8,342 nt of DNA from a bacterium (GTDB taxonomy: Bacteria > UBA9089 > CG2-30-40-21 > SBAY01), in contig JBFLYA010000127.1 of assembly GCA_040757115.1 (NCBI GenBank), positions 1 through 8,342 on the forward strand, in the 5' to 3' direction. Both the position numbers and the translations under genes were made by a program. The notes beneath the pieces were generated by a model. That model was not told the DNA's origin. It was given only the letters and a program-made list of their open reading frames with translations, and ran no database searches. Of the stretch, positions 149-8,342 are shown one piece after another (within the stretch, counting starts at the first letter, position 1; each line of letters begins with the position of its first letter).

Positions 149-183
149 CTGACCACGCTAAACAGGTACTGACCTGTGGTCAG
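149..183. repeat. Bulged inverted repeat at the end of hepT
   Basis: CTGACC (149-154) pairs with GGTCAG (178-183), and ACAGGT (162-167) pairs with ACCTGT (172-177). Seven unpaired bases lie on one side. The hairpin overlaps the present stop codon of the hepT frame (158-160). This suggests that the last roughly 18 residues of that frame are read into former intergenic sequence. No run of T follows on either side, so a terminator role is unsupported. Confidence 0.5.
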
Positions 184-551
184 GATTAGTTTGTGCATAA
201 TGATTAGATTGATTCTCTTCCTTTTCAATAATATATTTCAATTCGTTTTTCAATACAGGAATATCCCTTTCAACCGCATCCCAAACAGCATCTATATCTA
301 CATCTAAATAATCGTGTATCAATTTGTCCCTCATTCCAGCCATTTTCTTCCGGGTATATTCGGATATTTATCTCTAATTGCTGAGTCAATTTTTTAGTTG
401 CTTCTCCAATTATTTCCAGTTCTCTTATAACACCTGCTTGAATCAGATTACTATTCATGAAATTACTGTAGTTTACTTCTTTAGTGTAGTCTTCAATGCG
501 GTGTATAGCATCAAAAATGTCTTTTAAGTAGATAGTGTCATCCTTATTCAT
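158..551 (-). pseudogene. hepT: HepT-family toxin (HEPN, DUF86), two frameshifts
   Basis: HepT proteins are HEPN-domain ribonucleases that form toxin-antitoxin pairs with MntA-type nucleotidyltransferases. The N-terminal half reads from ATG at 549-551 and contains a typical HepT segment (VIRELEIIGEATKKL). The C-terminal half lies in another frame and contains MAGMRDKLIHDY, with the family's R-x4-H catalytic motif intact, followed by VWDAVERDIPVLK. The normal linking sequence (DKYP-IP-W-KKMAG) can be restored by adding one base near 374-378 and another near 350-354. Two one-base losses therefore best explain the break. The ATG overlaps the mntA stop by 4 bp (ATGA), which indicates translational coupling. 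As it stands, the frame from the ATG ends near 270 without the catalytic half. Assembly error is possible but would require two errors within about 30 bp. Confidence 0.85.
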
Positions 552-838
552 TCGTATATCACTTTCATTTCCTTTTTAATCCTGCCAATGAGGTATGGAC
601 TTATAGACCTCTCTGTGAGCAAATCGACCTTAATACCCAGGGTATCAGACAGTTCCTGCTCTATTCCAACAAGGTCAAGCAAACTTTTTCTTTCCGAAAA
701 TTCAACAATAATATCTATGTCGCTTTCTGGCTTTTCATCTCCTTTTACATAGGAGCCAAATAGTGCGGCCTTTTTTACTCTGTGTTTTCTCAGCACCCGA
801 ATAATGTTTCTTTGAATATTTTCAACTTGAGGATTCAT
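548..838 (-). CDS. mntA: MntA-type minimal nucleotidyltransferase antitoxin
   Basis: This 96-residue protein belongs to the minimal nucleotidyltransferase family. It carries the complete GS-x10-D-x-D signature (G28-S29, D40, D42), which binds metal and nucleotide. A later VDLLTERSI strand probably supplies the third acidic position. In characterised MntA-HepT (type VII) systems, MntA AMPylates the HepT toxin near its active site and neutralises it. The start is fixed by a GAGGTGG ribosome site a few bases upstream of the ATG at 836-838. The gene overlaps the downstream hepT by 4 bp. It is intact while its toxin partner is broken, so it looks like an orphan antitoxin. At 96 residues it belongs to the short class; some characterised MntA proteins are longer. 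Confidence 0.88.
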   Translation of the reverse strand: MNPQVENIQRNIIRVLRKHRVKKAALFGSYVKGDEKPESDIDIIVEFSERKSLLDLVGIEQELSDTLGIKVDLLTERSISPYLIGRIKKEMKVIYE

Positions 839-1680: not shown

Positions 1681-2031
1681 TCATTTAATAATCCCAATCT
1701 TTCCTATCTTCTTTCCTCCACCTCCGCCGGTGATGCAGTAGATATAGATACCTGAAGCAAGGTTTTTGCTTTGAATATCCCATTTCGGATGGCATTCGGT
1801 TACAGGTATCTCATCTATTAATTCACCGACAATGTTGTAAATCCGAATAGTTGAACCTTCGCTAACCCTGTCAAAATAGATATACCTTCCTCCATATTTT
1901 GAATCGCCTTTCTTCCATGGACCTGGATAGGCAAAGACATCATTGTTTGTTGGGGTAAAGATTACGCCTCCTGAGGTAAAGGTTGTAAAAGGTAGTAAAA
2001 TAAAACTCCGTAGAGTAAACTTATCTATCAA
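1681..2031 (-). pseudogene. C-terminal T9SS type A-like sorting/FlgD-like domain, N-terminus lost
   Basis: The frame encodes an Ig-like C-terminal module of the kind annotated as 'T9SS type A sorting' or FlgD-like domains. Visible elements are DVFAYPGPWKKGD, then STIRIYNIVGELIDEI, then WDIQSKNLASGIYIY, a Gly-run and KKIGKIGIIK at the end. Such domains normally terminate large exported proteins and act as export or anchoring signals. Here only about 116 codons exist, beginning at a TTG with no recognisable ribosome site. The frame stays open upstream only to 2112, where it enters palindromic intergenic repeats. I therefore read it as the 3' tail of a lost larger gene. The usual Asn-Pro-Trp is Gly-Pro-Trp here. 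A short functional protein cannot be excluded. Confidence 0.65.
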
Positions 2032-3057: not shown

Positions 3058-3627
3058 ATGGCTACATATACCTTGCCGCGAACAACCTATGATTTATTAA
3101 CAGAGGCATTAGGAGAAAAACAAAAGGCAGAGATTTTTGCTAAGTCAATAGAGTCAGTAATTGAAGCAATTGAGAAGAAGGCAGAAGAGATAATCGTAGA
3201 AAAGAAGAGCCAGATAAAAACTGAATTAAAAGATGAATTAAGAAATGAGCTGGTAACAAGAGAATTATTTGATGAAAGATTTAAAGCCCTTGAACATAAT
3301 GAGCTGGTAACAAGAGAGTTATTTGATGAAAGATTTAAAACACTTGAACATGAGGTGAATGAAAGATTTAAGGTTGTAGATGAAAAATTCAAGGCTCTTG
3401 AAAGTAAGATGGAGGAAAAATTTAATGTTGTAGATGAAAGATTCAAGGCTCTTGAAAGTAAGATGGAGGAAAGATTTAATGTTGTAGATGAAAGATTTAA
3501 GATTGTAGATGAGAAGTTCAAAAGCCTTAACTTTAGGCTTAATATCTTCATCGCCATTGCCCTTATTGCCCTAACCTTTGCTAATCCTACTTTTGTGAAA
3601 CTAATAGAAAAGGTTTTTGGGATTTAA
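3058..3627 (+). CDS. Coiled-coil protein with C-terminal membrane anchor
   Basis: The 189-residue product starts at ATG 3058, set by AAGGAG nine bases upstream and by the promoter at 2974-3002. A short N-terminal segment (MATYTLPRTTYDLL) leads into a charged helix. Residues 63-98 are two copies of an 18-residue unit beginning NELVTRELFDERFK. Residues 106-158 hold nearly three copies of a related unit (VVDERFKALESKMEERFN). One hydrophobic segment (about 161-180, NIFIAIALIALTFANPTF) follows, and the protein ends in KLIEKVFGI. The layout resembles DUF1640/CCDC90-type tail-anchored coiled-coil proteins. A membrane-tethered rod or oligomerisation role is inferred. The gene stands alone, with IS debris upstream. 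I do not recognise a specific function. Confidence 0.85.
   Translation: MATYTLPRTTYDLLTEALGEKQKAEIFAKSIESVIEAIEKKAEEIIVEKKSQIKTELKDELRNELVTRELFDERFKALEHNELVTRELFDERFKTLEHEVNERFKVVDEKFKALESKMEEKFNVVDERFKALESKMEERFNVVDERFKIVDEKFKSLNFRLNIFIAIALIALTFANPTFVKLIEKVFGI
3244..3531 (+). repeat. 54-bp tandem repeats inside the coiled-coil gene
   Basis: Two copies begin with AATGAGCTGGTAACAAGAGA at 3244 and 3298. After a partial unit, related copies begin with GTTGTAGATGAAA at 3373, 3427 and 3481. All spacings within each group are exactly 54 bp, so the frame is kept. Neighbouring copies are nearly identical, which indicates recent expansion. The 18-residue unit equals one heptad plus one hendecad, giving 3.6 residues per turn. 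Confidence 0.85.
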
Positions 3628-4913: not shown

Positions 4914-4939
4914 GACATAACGATTACCTGAAAAAAAAA

Positions 4940-4978
4940 GGGCAATCCCACTTCCGTGGAAGATTGCCCCTTTTTTTT
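4940..4978. terminator. Strong, probably bidirectional intrinsic terminator
   Basis: GGGCAATC (4940-4947) pairs with GATTGCCC (4962-4969). Inside, CCAC (4948-4951) pairs with GTGG (4956-4959) around a TTCC loop, with an AA bulge. Eight T follow on the plus strand (4971-4978). Nine A precede the stem (4931-4939), giving the U-run for minus-strand transcripts. It therefore ends both the phosphorylase gene and the convergent Cys-Pro repeat gene, whose stop is at 5002. Confidence 0.9.
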
Positions 4979-5001
4979 GTCTTAATTCCCCTTTTTATTG
5001 T

Positions 5002-6279
5002 CTATCTTGAAATTGTCACTGGACATGGTGAGGGACATTTCGTCCTTATTACTGGACATTTAGTTTGCTCTTCTGGACATCTCGTCCTTATCATCGGACA
5101 TTTTGTCTTTATTACTGGACATTTAGTTTGCTCTTCTGGACATCTCGTCCTTATCATCGGACATTTTGTTGGTTCTTTTGGACATCTTGTCTGAATCACT
5201 GGACATTCAGTCCTTCTCACTGGACATTTGGTTTGCTCTTCTGGACATCTCGTCCTTATCATCGGACATGTGGTCCTTATTGGTTGTTGGGTGATATTAC
5301 ACGGGGGACATTGTGTATCTACAATTGGACATCGGGTTCTTATCTCAGGACATTTCGTCTGAATCACTGGACATTTAGTTGTCACTATTGGACATTTGGT
5401 GTTAATTGGTTCTTGAGTGATATTACACGGGGGACATTCTGTTTCTACAATTGGACATCGGGTTTTCATCTCCGGACATTTAGTCAGCACTGGTGGACAT
5501 TTTGTTTCTGCTTCTGGACAGCGAGTAAGCGGTTGTGGACACTTAGTCCTTTCTACCGGACATTTGGTGTTAATTGGTTCTTGAGTGATATTACACGGGG
5601 GACATTCTGTTTCTACAATTGGACATCGGGTTTTCATCTCCGGACATTTAGTCAGCACTGGTGGACATTTTGTTTCTGCTTCTGGACAGCGAGTAGGCAG
5701 TTGTGGACACTTAGTCCTTTCTACAGGACATTGGGTGTTAATTGGTTCTTGAGTGATATTACACGGTGGACATTCTGTTTCTACAATTGGACATCGGGTT
5801 TTCATCTCCGGACATTTAGTCAGCACTGGTGGACATTTTGTTTCTGCTTCTGGACAGCGAGTAGGCGCTTGTGGACACTTAGTCCTTTCTACGGGACATT
5901 GGGTGTTAATTGGTTCTTGAGTGATATTATGCGGTGGACATTCTGTTTCTACAATTGGACATCGGGTTTTCATCTCCGGACATTTAGTCAGCACTGGTGG
6001 ACATTTTGTTTCTGCTTCTGGACAGCGAGTAAGCGGTTGTGGACACTTAGTCCTTTCTACAGGACATTGGGTATTGACAGGTTCTTGAGTTGGAAATTGT
6101 GGTTCTGGTTCATTAGCTTGAACAACAACAATTCCAGTATTGTTGAACTGTAAGGCTGACTTTAAAGTGGATTTATAGAGTGGAGAATCATTCGCATCTT
6201 CAAAACTGCTGGCTTGTTGAACTCCAAAAGTCAAACTTCCTACCATCACAGCCGTTAACCATAGTAACCGTTTATTCAT
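5002..6279 (-). CDS. Secreted Cys-Pro heptad-repeat protein (unrecognised family)
   Basis: The 425-residue product starts at ATG 6277-6279 behind AAAGGAGGTG. An N-terminal signal peptide is clear: KR, a hydrophobic core at about 5-20, and likely cleavage near Ala23-Ser25. Residues 26-69 form a Cys-free linker. Residues 70-419 are 50 unbroken heptads; 45 read T-x-C-P-x-x-x, with x mostly K, R, E or Q. Five spacer heptads read ITQEPIN or ITQQPIR. Four 56-residue units (70-125, 126-181, 182-237, 238-293), each seven Cys heptads plus one spacer, precede a 42-residue unit (294-335) and a 12-heptad tail (336-419). By my count there are 50 Cys, all outside the signal and linker. There is no lipobox, C-terminal anchor or sorting tail. 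I know no matching family. A disulfide-linked or metal- or heme-binding surface fibre is conjecture. Confidence 0.88.
   Translation of the reverse strand: MNKRLLWLTAVMVGSLTFGVQQASSFEDANDSPLYKSTLKSALQFNNTGIVVVQANEPEPQFPTQEPVNTQCPVERTKCPQPLTRCPEAETKCPPVLTKCPEMKTRCPIVETECPPHNITQEPINTQCPVERTKCPQAPTRCPEAETKCPPVLTKCPEMKTRCPIVETECPPCNITQEPINTQCPVERTKCPQLPTRCPEAETKCPPVLTKCPEMKTRCPIVETECPPCNITQEPINTKCPVERTKCPQPLTRCPEAETKCPPVLTKCPEMKTRCPIVETECPPCNITQEPINTKCPIVTTKCPVIQTKCPEIRTRCPIVDTQCPPCNITQQPIRTTCPMIRTRCPEEQTKCPVRRTECPVIQTRCPKEPTKCPMIRTRCPEEQTKCPVIKTKCPMIRTRCPEEQTKCPVIRTKCPSPCPVTISR
5023..5274 (-). repeat. Tail array of 21-bp Cys-Pro heptad codon repeats
   Basis: Twelve consecutive 21-bp units encode T-x-C-P-x-x-x. 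A three-heptad sub-unit (CPMIR, TRCPEEQ, TKCPV) occurs three times, so the tail expanded by a different unit length from the 168-bp array. On the plus strand it appears as recurring GGACATCTCGTCC and ATCATCGGACAT words. Confidence 0.85.
5275..6072 (-). repeat. 168-bp tandem repeats in the Cys-Pro gene
   Basis: Four full 168-bp units (5905-6072, 5737-5904, 5569-5736, 5401-5568) are nearly identical. A shortened, more diverged 126-bp unit follows (5275-5400). Differences cluster at the end of the second heptad (QPL, QAP, QLP, QPL) and in the PPHN/PPCN position. This pattern indicates recent unequal crossing-over or homogenisation. Length variation between strains is likely, and short-read assemblies may collapse the array. 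Confidence 0.9.
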
Positions 6280-6286
6280 TTTATTT

Positions 6287-6296
6287 CACCTCCTTT
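6287..6296 (-). promoter_or_regulatory. Ribosome binding site of the Cys-Pro repeat gene
   Basis: AAAGGAGGTG on the minus strand, seven bases before ATG 6279, is close to a perfect Shine-Dalgarno match. It confirms the start that includes the signal peptide and suggests efficient translation. Confidence 0.85.
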
Positions 6297-6482: not shown

Positions 6483-6511
6483 AGTATAGCATATTTTCTA
6501 TTCAGTGTCAA
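6483..6511 (-). promoter_or_regulatory. Promoter of the Cys-Pro repeat gene
   Basis: On the minus strand a perfect TTGACA (6506-6511), a 17-bp spacer and TATACT (6483-6488, five of six consensus bases) point toward the gene at 6279. It is back to back with the promoter at 6554-6582. Confidence 0.78.
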
Positions 6512-6620: not shown

Positions 6621-8342
6621 TTGGAAAAAGAAATTAAGCAAAAAAAGAAAGAGGAAATTACTTCTCCAGAAACAGGAAGGAAAAAACTTAGACTGGGCGA
6701 AATGTTAGTTGAACGGGGAATTATCAATTATACCCAGCTTAATGAGGCGCTATCGGTCCAGAAGAAAAGAGGAGATAGATTGGCGTGTATCCTGGTAGAA
6801 TTAGGTCTTATGAAGGAAGATGATATTGCAGATTTCTTTTCACAAGAATTAAAAATACCGAGAGTAAAGGCAAAAGATTTAGATAAAATTGAACTGAGCG
6901 TAAAAAATATTATACCCGAAAATATTATGCGACGGGAATTAACTCTACCAATAAGTAAAAAGGACAATATATTAGTTGTAGCGTTAGTTGACCCTCTAAA
7001 TGTTATTGCCATTGATGAAGTAAGGTCACGAACTGGGTGTGAAATTAAAACAGTTGTTGCGACGGAAAGAGAAATAAGAAATGCCATCGAAAAACATTAT
7101 GGAAAAATCATCTCTATGGATGATTTGGTTAAAAAGATGGAGCATAAAGATGAGGTAGAAGTAGTTAAAGAAGAGGTAGTTATCCAGGAGGAAGATTTAA
7201 GTAACTTAGTAAAGAAAGGGACAGAACCATCCATTGTTGATTTAGTAAATTATATATTAGTCGATGCTATCAAATCAAGAGCATCAGATATACATATTGA
7301 GCCACAAGAAAAGTCTGTTAGACTGCGTAATAGAATTGACGGCGTGTTATATACAATTCCATCTCCACCTAAACGATTTCAAAATGCAATTATCTCAAGA
7401 ATAAAAATTATGGCAGGAATGGATATTGCCGAGCATAGATTACCACAAGATGGTAGATTTAAAGTTCGGTATGAAAAAAGGGATATAGATTTCCGTGTAT
7501 CAGTTATTCCAACTACTTATGGAGAAAAAGCAGTTTTAAGAATCCTTGATGCTAGTAATCTGTGTTTAGAGTTAGATGAGTTAGGTTTTGAACCAAAGGC
7601 ATTACCACTTTATAAAAAATATATCCGTGCACCTCATGGAATTATCTTAGTCACAGGACCAACCGGATGTGGGAAATCTACCACCCTTTATTCGACCTTA
7701 AGAACGATAAATTCAGAGGATCAAAATATAGTAACAGTTGAAGACCCAATAGAATATCTTTTGCCAGGAATAAGTCAGGTTCAGGTCAGAACAGAAATAG
7801 GATTAGATTTTACAGATGGACTGCGGCATTTTTTACGGCAAGACCCTGATATTATTATGGTAGGTGAAATAAGAGACCGTGAGGCGGCGGAAGTAGCCAT
7901 CAATGCCGCTTTAACTGGACATCTGGTATTTTCTACTTTGCATACTAATGATGCCGCAGGAGCAGTAACTCGATTACTTAATATGGGAATAGAGCCATTT
8001 TTAATCTCATCCACTATCTTGTTAAGTATTGCTCAACGATTAGTTCGAAAAATATGTCCAGAATGTAAAGAGTCTTATGAAGCATCCACGCAGACCTTGC
8101 GTAGTGTAGGAATTAAAGTTGAAGGAGATAAAAAATTTCCTTTATATCGCGGTAGAGGCTGTGATAGATGTAACAATGTTGGCTACAAAGGCAGAATTGG
8201 TGTATATGAAGTAATGATTATTAATGATGATATTCGCCAGCTTATTTTGAACCGTGAACCGGCACAAACAATTAAAGAATTAGCAGAAGAGATGGGAATG
8301 ATTTCTTTAAGAGAATCGGCATTAAGAAAAGTAATCCGCGGA
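6621..8342 (+). CDS. pilB: Type IV pilus/type II secretion assembly ATPase (PilB/GspE), partial
   Basis: The frame is open for 574 codons to the window edge, so the C-terminus is cut. The proposed start is TTG at 6621, behind AGGGGTG and 38 bp after a consensus promoter. After a Lys/Glu-rich N-terminus comes a GSPII_E/MshEN-type domain (about 25-155, KLRLGEMLVERG, then LVVALVDPLNV). The ATPase core shows Walker A GPTGCGKST (346-354), the Walker B region DPDIIMVGEIRD (408-419), the His box HLVFSTLH (434-441) and a zinc-binding four-Cys site (C479, C482, C514, C517). These cytoplasmic hexameric motors hydrolyse ATP to drive pilin or pseudopilin polymerisation through a PilC/GspF platform. The MshEN domain in this family can bind c-di-GMP, but I have not checked those residues. 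PilB is preferred over GspE by length and domain order, without certainty; pilT and pilC downstream would settle it. Confidence 0.9.
   Translation, partial: MEKEIKQKKKEEITSPETGRKKLRLGEMLVERGIINYTQLNEALSVQKKRGDRLACILVELGLMKEDDIADFFSQELKIPRVKAKDLDKIELSVKNIIPENIMRRELTLPISKKDNILVVALVDPLNVIAIDEVRSRTGCEIKTVVATEREIRNAIEKHYGKIISMDDLVKKMEHKDEVEVVKEEVVIQEEDLSNLVKKGTEPSIVDLVNYILVDAIKSRASDIHIEPQEKSVRLRNRIDGVLYTIPSPPKRFQNAIISRIKIMAGMDIAEHRLPQDGRFKVRYEKRDIDFRVSVIPTTYGEKAVLRILDASNLCLELDELGFEPKALPLYKKYIRAPHGIILVTGPTGCGKSTTLYSTLRTINSEDQNIVTVEDPIEYLLPGISQVQVRTEIGLDFTDGLRHFLRQDPDIIMVGEIRDREAAEVAINAALTGHLVFSTLHTNDAAGAVTRLLNMGIEPFLISSTILLSIAQRLVRKICPECKESYEASTQTLRSVGIKVEGDKKFPLYRGRGCDRCNNVGYKGRIGVYEVMIINDDIRQLILNREPAQTIKELAEEMGMISLRESALRKVIRG

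Follow-up and report, generated by a model that had tools for sequence, protein, structure and literature searches.

What might a bacterium do with an exported-looking protein in which a cysteine followed by a proline returns every seven residues without ever losing phase? The question is raised by a gene in a stretch of 8,342 nucleotides (the window), which is the first 8342 of the 10981 bases of contig C127 in genome G000 (4.3 Mb, 99.9% complete). Relatives elsewhere are encoded in three-gene units together with two membrane proteins that resemble sugar binders, and on this ground the product probably serves as a building material of the cell surface, of a type that the searched sources do not describe.

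The gene and its product

The features of the window that matter here are as follows.

5002-6279, minus strand: gene for the TxCP-heptad protein, with an ATG start, 425 amino acids and a stop (reading of the open frame)
6205-6279, minus strand: predicted signal peptide, residues 1-25 (MNKRLLWLTAVMVGSLTFGVQQASS), inferred from inspection and hydropathy
6145-6204, minus strand: N-terminal SPLY motif, residues 26-45 (FEDANDSPLYKSTLKSALQF), found also in exported proteins adjoining the genes for membrane proteins A and B elsewhere
5023-6072, minus strand: array of 50 in-phase heptads (45 of them TxCP), residues 70-419, from an in-phase parse, as are the five linkers
5905-5925, minus strand: in-phase linker heptad ITQEPIN, residues 119-125
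5737-5757, minus strand: in-phase linker heptad ITQEPIN, residues 175-181
5569-5589, minus strand: in-phase linker heptad ITQEPIN, residues 231-237
5401-5421, minus strand: in-phase linker heptad ITQEPIN, residues 287-293
5275-5295, minus strand: in-phase linker heptad ITQQPIR, residues 329-335
6287-6294, minus strand: Shine-Dalgarno sequence AGGAGGTG, from the sequence
6483-6511, minus strand: putative promoter TTGACA-17-TATACT, a consensus match only (11/12), with TG preceding the second hexamer
about 4932-4979, no strand assigned: strong hairpin between runs of A and of T (-27.1 kcal/mol, z -6.0)
6621-8342, plus strand: pilB/gspE-type ATPase gene, the divergent neighbour, identified by profile matches and listed for context

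Parsed from the first TxCP at residue 70, residues 70-419 fall into exactly 50 heptads (350 residues), namely 45 T-x-C-P-x-x-x, four ITQEPIN and one ITQQPIR, and the phase is strict throughout. A preliminary description of this DNA had given the same counts of 50 and 45, and had seen a signal peptide ahead of 350 repeat residues, ITQEPIN-type heptads as the only interruptions and about 50 cysteines confined to the repeat region. The analysis bears it out on each point: by inspection and hydropathy a Sec signal peptide is plausible for residues 1-25, the five linkers keep the phase, and the 50 cysteines all lie in the repeat region, 45 of them in phase, four at heptad position 6 and one terminal (SPC). 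The four at position 6 sit in TECPPCN or TQCPPCN and so form CPPC. Across the TxCP heptads T, C and P are each present in 45 of 45, and the residue after T is mostly K or R. Composition-matched shuffles of the 350 residues contain 1.4 TxCP on average and 7 at most (5000 shuffles). Proline (18.6%), threonine (14.9%) and cysteine (14.3%) are abundant in the repeat region, while glycine and aromatic residues are absent. Part of the regularity is due to recent duplication, since four units of 56 residues (168 bp) are near-identical, with 53-54 of 56 residues the same; the remaining heptads vary freely at the x positions. All 50 cysteine codons are TGT.

The gene is flanked by mtnP and pilB, and A and B are not adjacent to it. 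The hairpin at 4932-4979 is likely, from its sequence, to be a bidirectional terminator common to mtnP and the TxCP gene. Several other features of the window can be mentioned. An NTP_transf_2 nucleotidyltransferase gene (158-838, minus strand) is followed by a HepT-like gene that is apparently frame-shifted or truncated, and the two resemble an MNT-HepT toxin-antitoxin pair. A C-terminal fragment at 1681-2031 (minus strand) resembles T9SS type A sorting domains (TIGR04183), and 3058-3627 (plus strand) encodes a coiled-coil-like protein that has a C-terminal membrane helix and is built from 54-bp (18-residue) repeats.

Family and fold

No NCBIfam family matches the window protein, no solved structure is a significant relative, and the open-licence literature yielded nothing relevant on the TxCP repeat. 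The only Pfam match above cut-off, Cementoin (PF10511, 37.4 bits), is compositional. The transglutaminase-substrate repeat of cementoin and trappin is likewise short and proline-rich, but the window protein covers only 11 of the 30 profile positions, its best stretch being positions 16-26. The preliminary description had recognized no family with such a period, and indeed no Pfam or NCBIfam model describes the array, the Cementoin match being fragmentary.

Two further suggestions fared less well. A regular solenoid had been envisaged, but AlphaFold, given a 12-heptad block with 26 in-phase rows, returned a model with no helices or strands (pLDDT 61.5, pTM 0.14); metals and interchain disulfides lie outside its scope. 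The idea of a heme-binding or conductive fibre found no support, its sole hint being a weak cytochrome c-like tail in a planctomycete TxCP protein (L038, 2521-3237), which has CSCHG in place of CxxCH.

Relatives near and far

We use the name TxCP-heptad proteins for open frames that hold an unbroken run of 3-4 or more T/S-x-C-P heptads and whose x residues vary; the window protein shows all of these features. A DNA pattern of three heptads matched all four genomes of the window's family and none of 15 other genomes of its phylum; the reversed pattern gave 0 matches in the phylum and in 14 genomes reached via pattern matches. A protein-level search of the genome-contig collection with the window protein found no relatives. 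In the same genus, the ortholog in G001 adjoins pilB, is identical over its first 63 residues and differs in its array by whole units. G001 carries a second TxCP copy, next to which a pilB-like gene is represented by no more than its first ~70 codons (L013, 1343-1576), and for this reason the sequence suggests a duplicated and broken TxCP-pilB region. The versions in G002 and G003 have 259 and 160 amino acids, respectively. G003 also holds a decayed TxCP remnant (QTRCPEVETQCPPVCTEK; L028, about 3060-3123), which is flanked by miaA and acpS and has a pilB-type gene nearby. A diverged KPTKC array is present in G005, of the same order. Matches in G008, of the same phylum, are intergenic GATGCTC-type DNA repeats and not relatives; many intergenic arrays of GGATGCTCGATGCTCGATACT-type repeats occur on its contigs (L007, L021 and others) and are a source of false protein matches.

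Over the genome collection a four-heptad pattern matched at least 119 stretches. At least 23 of these are TxCP-rich frames with varied x residues, from Planctomycetota, Verrucomicrobiota and Victivallales, the largest among the matches listed having 153 TxCP. Most other matches (Actinobacteria, Nostoc, Bacteroidetes, viral contigs) appear to be 21-bp DNA repeats, their frames being short or uniform. Judged by the heptad itself, then, the window repeat is not unique: it is found in these three groups and in one family of the window's phylum. Its distribution is patchy, with genuine arrays in about 6 of 392 genomes of a Planctomycetota sample, meaning that the TxCP material is dispensable in most relatives.

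In a 26-row in-phase alignment T, C and P are kept nearly everywhere, which is not independent evidence because the rows were picked for the motif. A test for common descent of the arrays across phyla did not establish it: outside these three positions the window array is no closer to most PVC arrays than are its phase-preserving shuffles, and the test is clear only against G001b and G002 and marginal against L083, L108 and L111. In some Phycisphaerae and Sedimentisphaerales the array forms the C-terminal part of large GEVED/DUF7901 proteins, which would fit a surface role. Six planctomycete TxCP proteins (L046, L049, L109, L111, L117, L136) have a common tail after the array, CPxxExxC[PL][TS], plus DYLxxA in some; the tail is possibly a sorting or anchoring signal.

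Constraint on threonine, cysteine and proline

Diverged pairs of arrays are more informative. Between L083 and L140 identity is 0.89-0.95 at T, C and P and 0.27 at the x positions, and 48-67% of the identical T/C/P codons differ silently. Between G001b and G002 the corresponding identities are 0.94-1.00 and 0.34. Over the diverged pairs, the share of identical T/C/P codons with silent differences runs from a quarter to three quarters. L083 and L140 have the run pattern 13-13-5-4-5-10-2-5 in common, and the interruptions of the arrays across relatives are mostly in phase. Because the three residues are kept through silent codon changes while x has diverged, the constraint acts on the protein and is not the inertia of a DNA repeat. 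These comparisons thus show purifying selection on T, C and P at the protein level.

Membrane proteins A and B

Downstream of the TxCP gene, PVC bacteria typically have a gene for a membrane protein of ~870 amino acids, A, and then one for a related protein, B; both proteins have DUF4350/GIFT/ABC_transp_aux domains. By tblastn, A/B adjoin TxCP in 12 of 23 genuine loci (among the matches listed), several others ending before the downstream gene, and stand beside 0 of the other pattern-match loci from the scans. Extended DNA adds three genomes with the order TxCP-A-B (G062, G063 and G124) and one, G115, where TxCP-A runs to the end of the contig; of the PVC loci with sufficient flanking DNA, most have A-B adjoining TxCP. 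A is present in 16 of 18 TxCP genomes and in 1 of 31 control Planctomycetota (Fisher p 7e-10), a value that is only indicative, since 14 of the 18 were chosen through TxCP matches and the set includes Verrucomicrobiota. A plasmid search with A gave no match.

In the window's phylum both genes occur in all four TxCP genomes. Three sister-family genomes have a diverged B, two of the same three a diverged A, and none of the other genomes of the phylum that were searched has either. The order is broken in the window's genus: in G000, A is split over C34:23787-24602 and C50:17813-18529, and B lies at C123:5127-7571. On contig C144 of G003 the order is A-B-TxCP; here A shares 48% identity with PVC A, and B is interrupted by a stop.

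The GIFT profile (PF23355, cut-off 27.2) scores 33-50 bits in most full-length A and B tested and 24.7 bits in the truncated B of G003, and does not match two partial A. About 10 membrane helices lie at the N-terminus of A, whose model (pLDDT 66) combines an N-terminal helical part with two flavodoxin-like domains. Of its extracytoplasmic domains, the second resembles IFT52 (VIA-align Z 17.6) and OST48/Wbp1 (Z 14-16) in a fold comparison that barely covers the N-terminal membrane part.

A link between the window protein and A-B is provided by its N-terminus. The motif FEDANDSPLYKSTLKSAL recurs in exported proteins adjoining A-B. The mature N-terminus FEDANDSPLYKSTLKSALQF has a counterpart (FEDAPISPLYQSTLDSAFNR) in the planctomycete G120, in a TPR protein encoded immediately upstream of A-B. 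In G064 and G065 the motif takes the form SGSPLYGxAVxEAIxGL and belongs to exported-looking proteins encoded immediately downstream of A-B. The proteins beside A-B in these two genomes bear WCxxCKxYH repeats. Exported-looking verrucomicrobial proteins adjoining A-B (L283, 9475-10503; L284, 9667-10449) have repeated YWCxxCKxYH and long Pro/Ala tails.

What might the protein do?

We tentatively propose, with somewhat less than even confidence, that the TxCP protein is an extended, crosslinkable polymer of the surface or matrix and a client of the A-B pair. The purifying selection, the recurring TxCP-A-B order, the co-occurrence of TxCP with A, the presence of A and B in G000 and the SPLY link speak for this reading, and AlphaFold finds no fold for the array. 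Neither DsbB (12 carrier genomes) nor VKOR (seven genomes of the window's order) was found, which makes enzymatic disulfide formation less plausible; the crosslinks may be non-enzymatic disulfides, metal bridges or added glycans. Besides this lack of an oxidase, the separation of the window gene from A and B, the gene order broken in its genus, the array comparison across phyla and the patchy distribution speak against the reading. As a proposed mechanism, the protein would leave the cytoplasm via Sec, and at the membrane A and B would take charge of it, perhaps recognizing the SPLY motif. Having no glycine, aromatics or hydrophobic core, the array would stay an extended, proline-rich chain displaying one thiol and one threonine hydroxyl per seven residues, and would act as building material of the cell surface or matrix. 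Chains would probably be joined via their thiols, either by interchain disulfides formed without known Dsb enzymes or by shared metal ions, and the threonines may bear glycans. A fuller version, which we consider doubtful as a whole, is that TxCP-A-B constitutes an undescribed envelope system of PVC bacteria and their relatives. Here two dedicated membrane proteins with GIFT domains (OST48/GldG-like) would turn a Sec-exported polymer, periodic in thiols and threonines, into a wall, a sheath or a matrix. They would do so without Dsb enzymes, and thiol crosslinking might be coupled with O-glycosylation of the invariant threonine.

Other suggestions can be made. If the thiols stay reduced, the spaced cysteines and the CPPC or CPPH at each unit end could capture soft metals or metal sulfides outside the cytoplasm and so detoxify or store them. 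Cysteine makes up 14% of the array and is interchanged with histidine at the unit end in the window and G001, G005 has CHI heptads, the exported proteins beside A-B in G064 and G065 repeat YWCxxCKxYH, and the missing DsbB and VKOR would suit reduced thiols. Yet metal binding needs neither the invariant threonine nor the proline, histidine in place of cysteine is rare, and no metal-transport genes were recognized adjoining the cassettes read. Metallothionein-like proteins, moreover, have dense CxC/CxxC clusters, whereas TxCP cysteines stand seven apart. All in all, we find a metal binder unlikely. A mucin-like glycoprotein, in which the invariant threonine would accept O-glycans, A-B with their OST48-like GIFT domains would serve glycosylation, and Cys-Pro would provide spacing and crosslinks, we find quite unlikely. 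Threonine is present in 45 of 45 heptads, always with proline at +3; however, the preference for proline at +3 belongs to eukaryotic mucin glycosylation and is not known from these bacteria. By inspection, an A-like N-half in G000 lies near a gene for a 653-aa polytopic protein and an LptF/G-like gene. GIFT domains resemble OST48/Wbp1 and have been proposed as sugar binders (PMC7226087), but OST48 is a non-catalytic subunit and A and B carry no assigned glycosyltransferase activity.

Could the protein instead be an accessory of a pilus or type II secretion system, acting with the divergent pilB-pilT-pilC genes? Two points would speak for this: in G000 and G001 the gene and pilB stand head-to-head, each side having a near-consensus putative promoter, and a pilB fragment lies beside the second G001 copy. 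Outside the genus, however, the pilB neighbour is not conserved: the divergent neighbour in G002 is a FecR-domain gene, the G003 TxCP gene sits with A-B, and PVC TxCP genes do not adjoin pil genes, all of which makes such a role improbable. The array might even be a low-complexity sequence with no selected function, maintained by replication slippage, as the four near-identical 168-bp units, the gain or loss of whole units between G000 and G001 and the uniform TGT codons would allow. This already disfavoured option appears highly improbable, given that T, C and P survive silent codon changes while x diverges, that interruptions stay in phase and that the partner genes are conserved.

Significance and comparison with known systems

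If the proposed polymer and its A-B partners are real, they would add a repeat family and a three-gene unit without Pfam or NCBIfam description across several largely uncultured groups. They would also be a concrete, testable candidate for a surface material made of protein, in bacteria with unusual and debated envelopes. The TxCP repeat would be a simple natural periodic thiol polymer, and through the A-B pair a defined bacterial client would be linked to GIFT domains, which are familiar from gliding, cilia and N-glycosylation.

Cysteine-rich surface repeat proteins and GldG-like complexes are already known in outline. YTV-domain proteins (PF07639) are exported, cysteine-rich, found in cell-wall preparations and reported to be restricted to Planctomycetales (PMC8567305). 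Like TxCP proteins they are exported or exported-looking, bear repeats and occur in PVC bacteria, but the repeats differ and TxCP is mainly found in other orders. That the TxCP protein is itself a YTV protein can be ruled out, as neither it nor its genome has a YTV match; there are 0 matches in G000-G003, and the domain is absent from 17 of 18 genomes tested, G062 alone having both. The proteinaceous wall of Isosphaera is reported to be without cysteine and proline (PMC3072084), and for this reason we do not claim a general link to planctomycete walls.

With GldG (TIGR03521) of the Flavobacterium gliding apparatus the GIFT domains of A and B have a weak similarity, and at 14.8-18.8 bits (cut-off 389.85) orthology is ruled out. 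Archaeal DUF4350/GldG-like proteins (arCOG01314) have been predicted to form a secretion or membrane-remodelling complex with S-layer-like proteins (Makarova and co-workers, PMC5898192). A differs in its roughly 10 N-terminal membrane helices and two such domains, and a MoxR ATPase, a vWA protein and an ABC transporter were not recognized in the A-B cassettes read. What A and B have in common with that complex are the DUF4350, GIFT and ABC_transp_aux domains and the company of an exported protein; by this analogy, TxCP-A-B may be a bacterial system of the same general kind with a new client.
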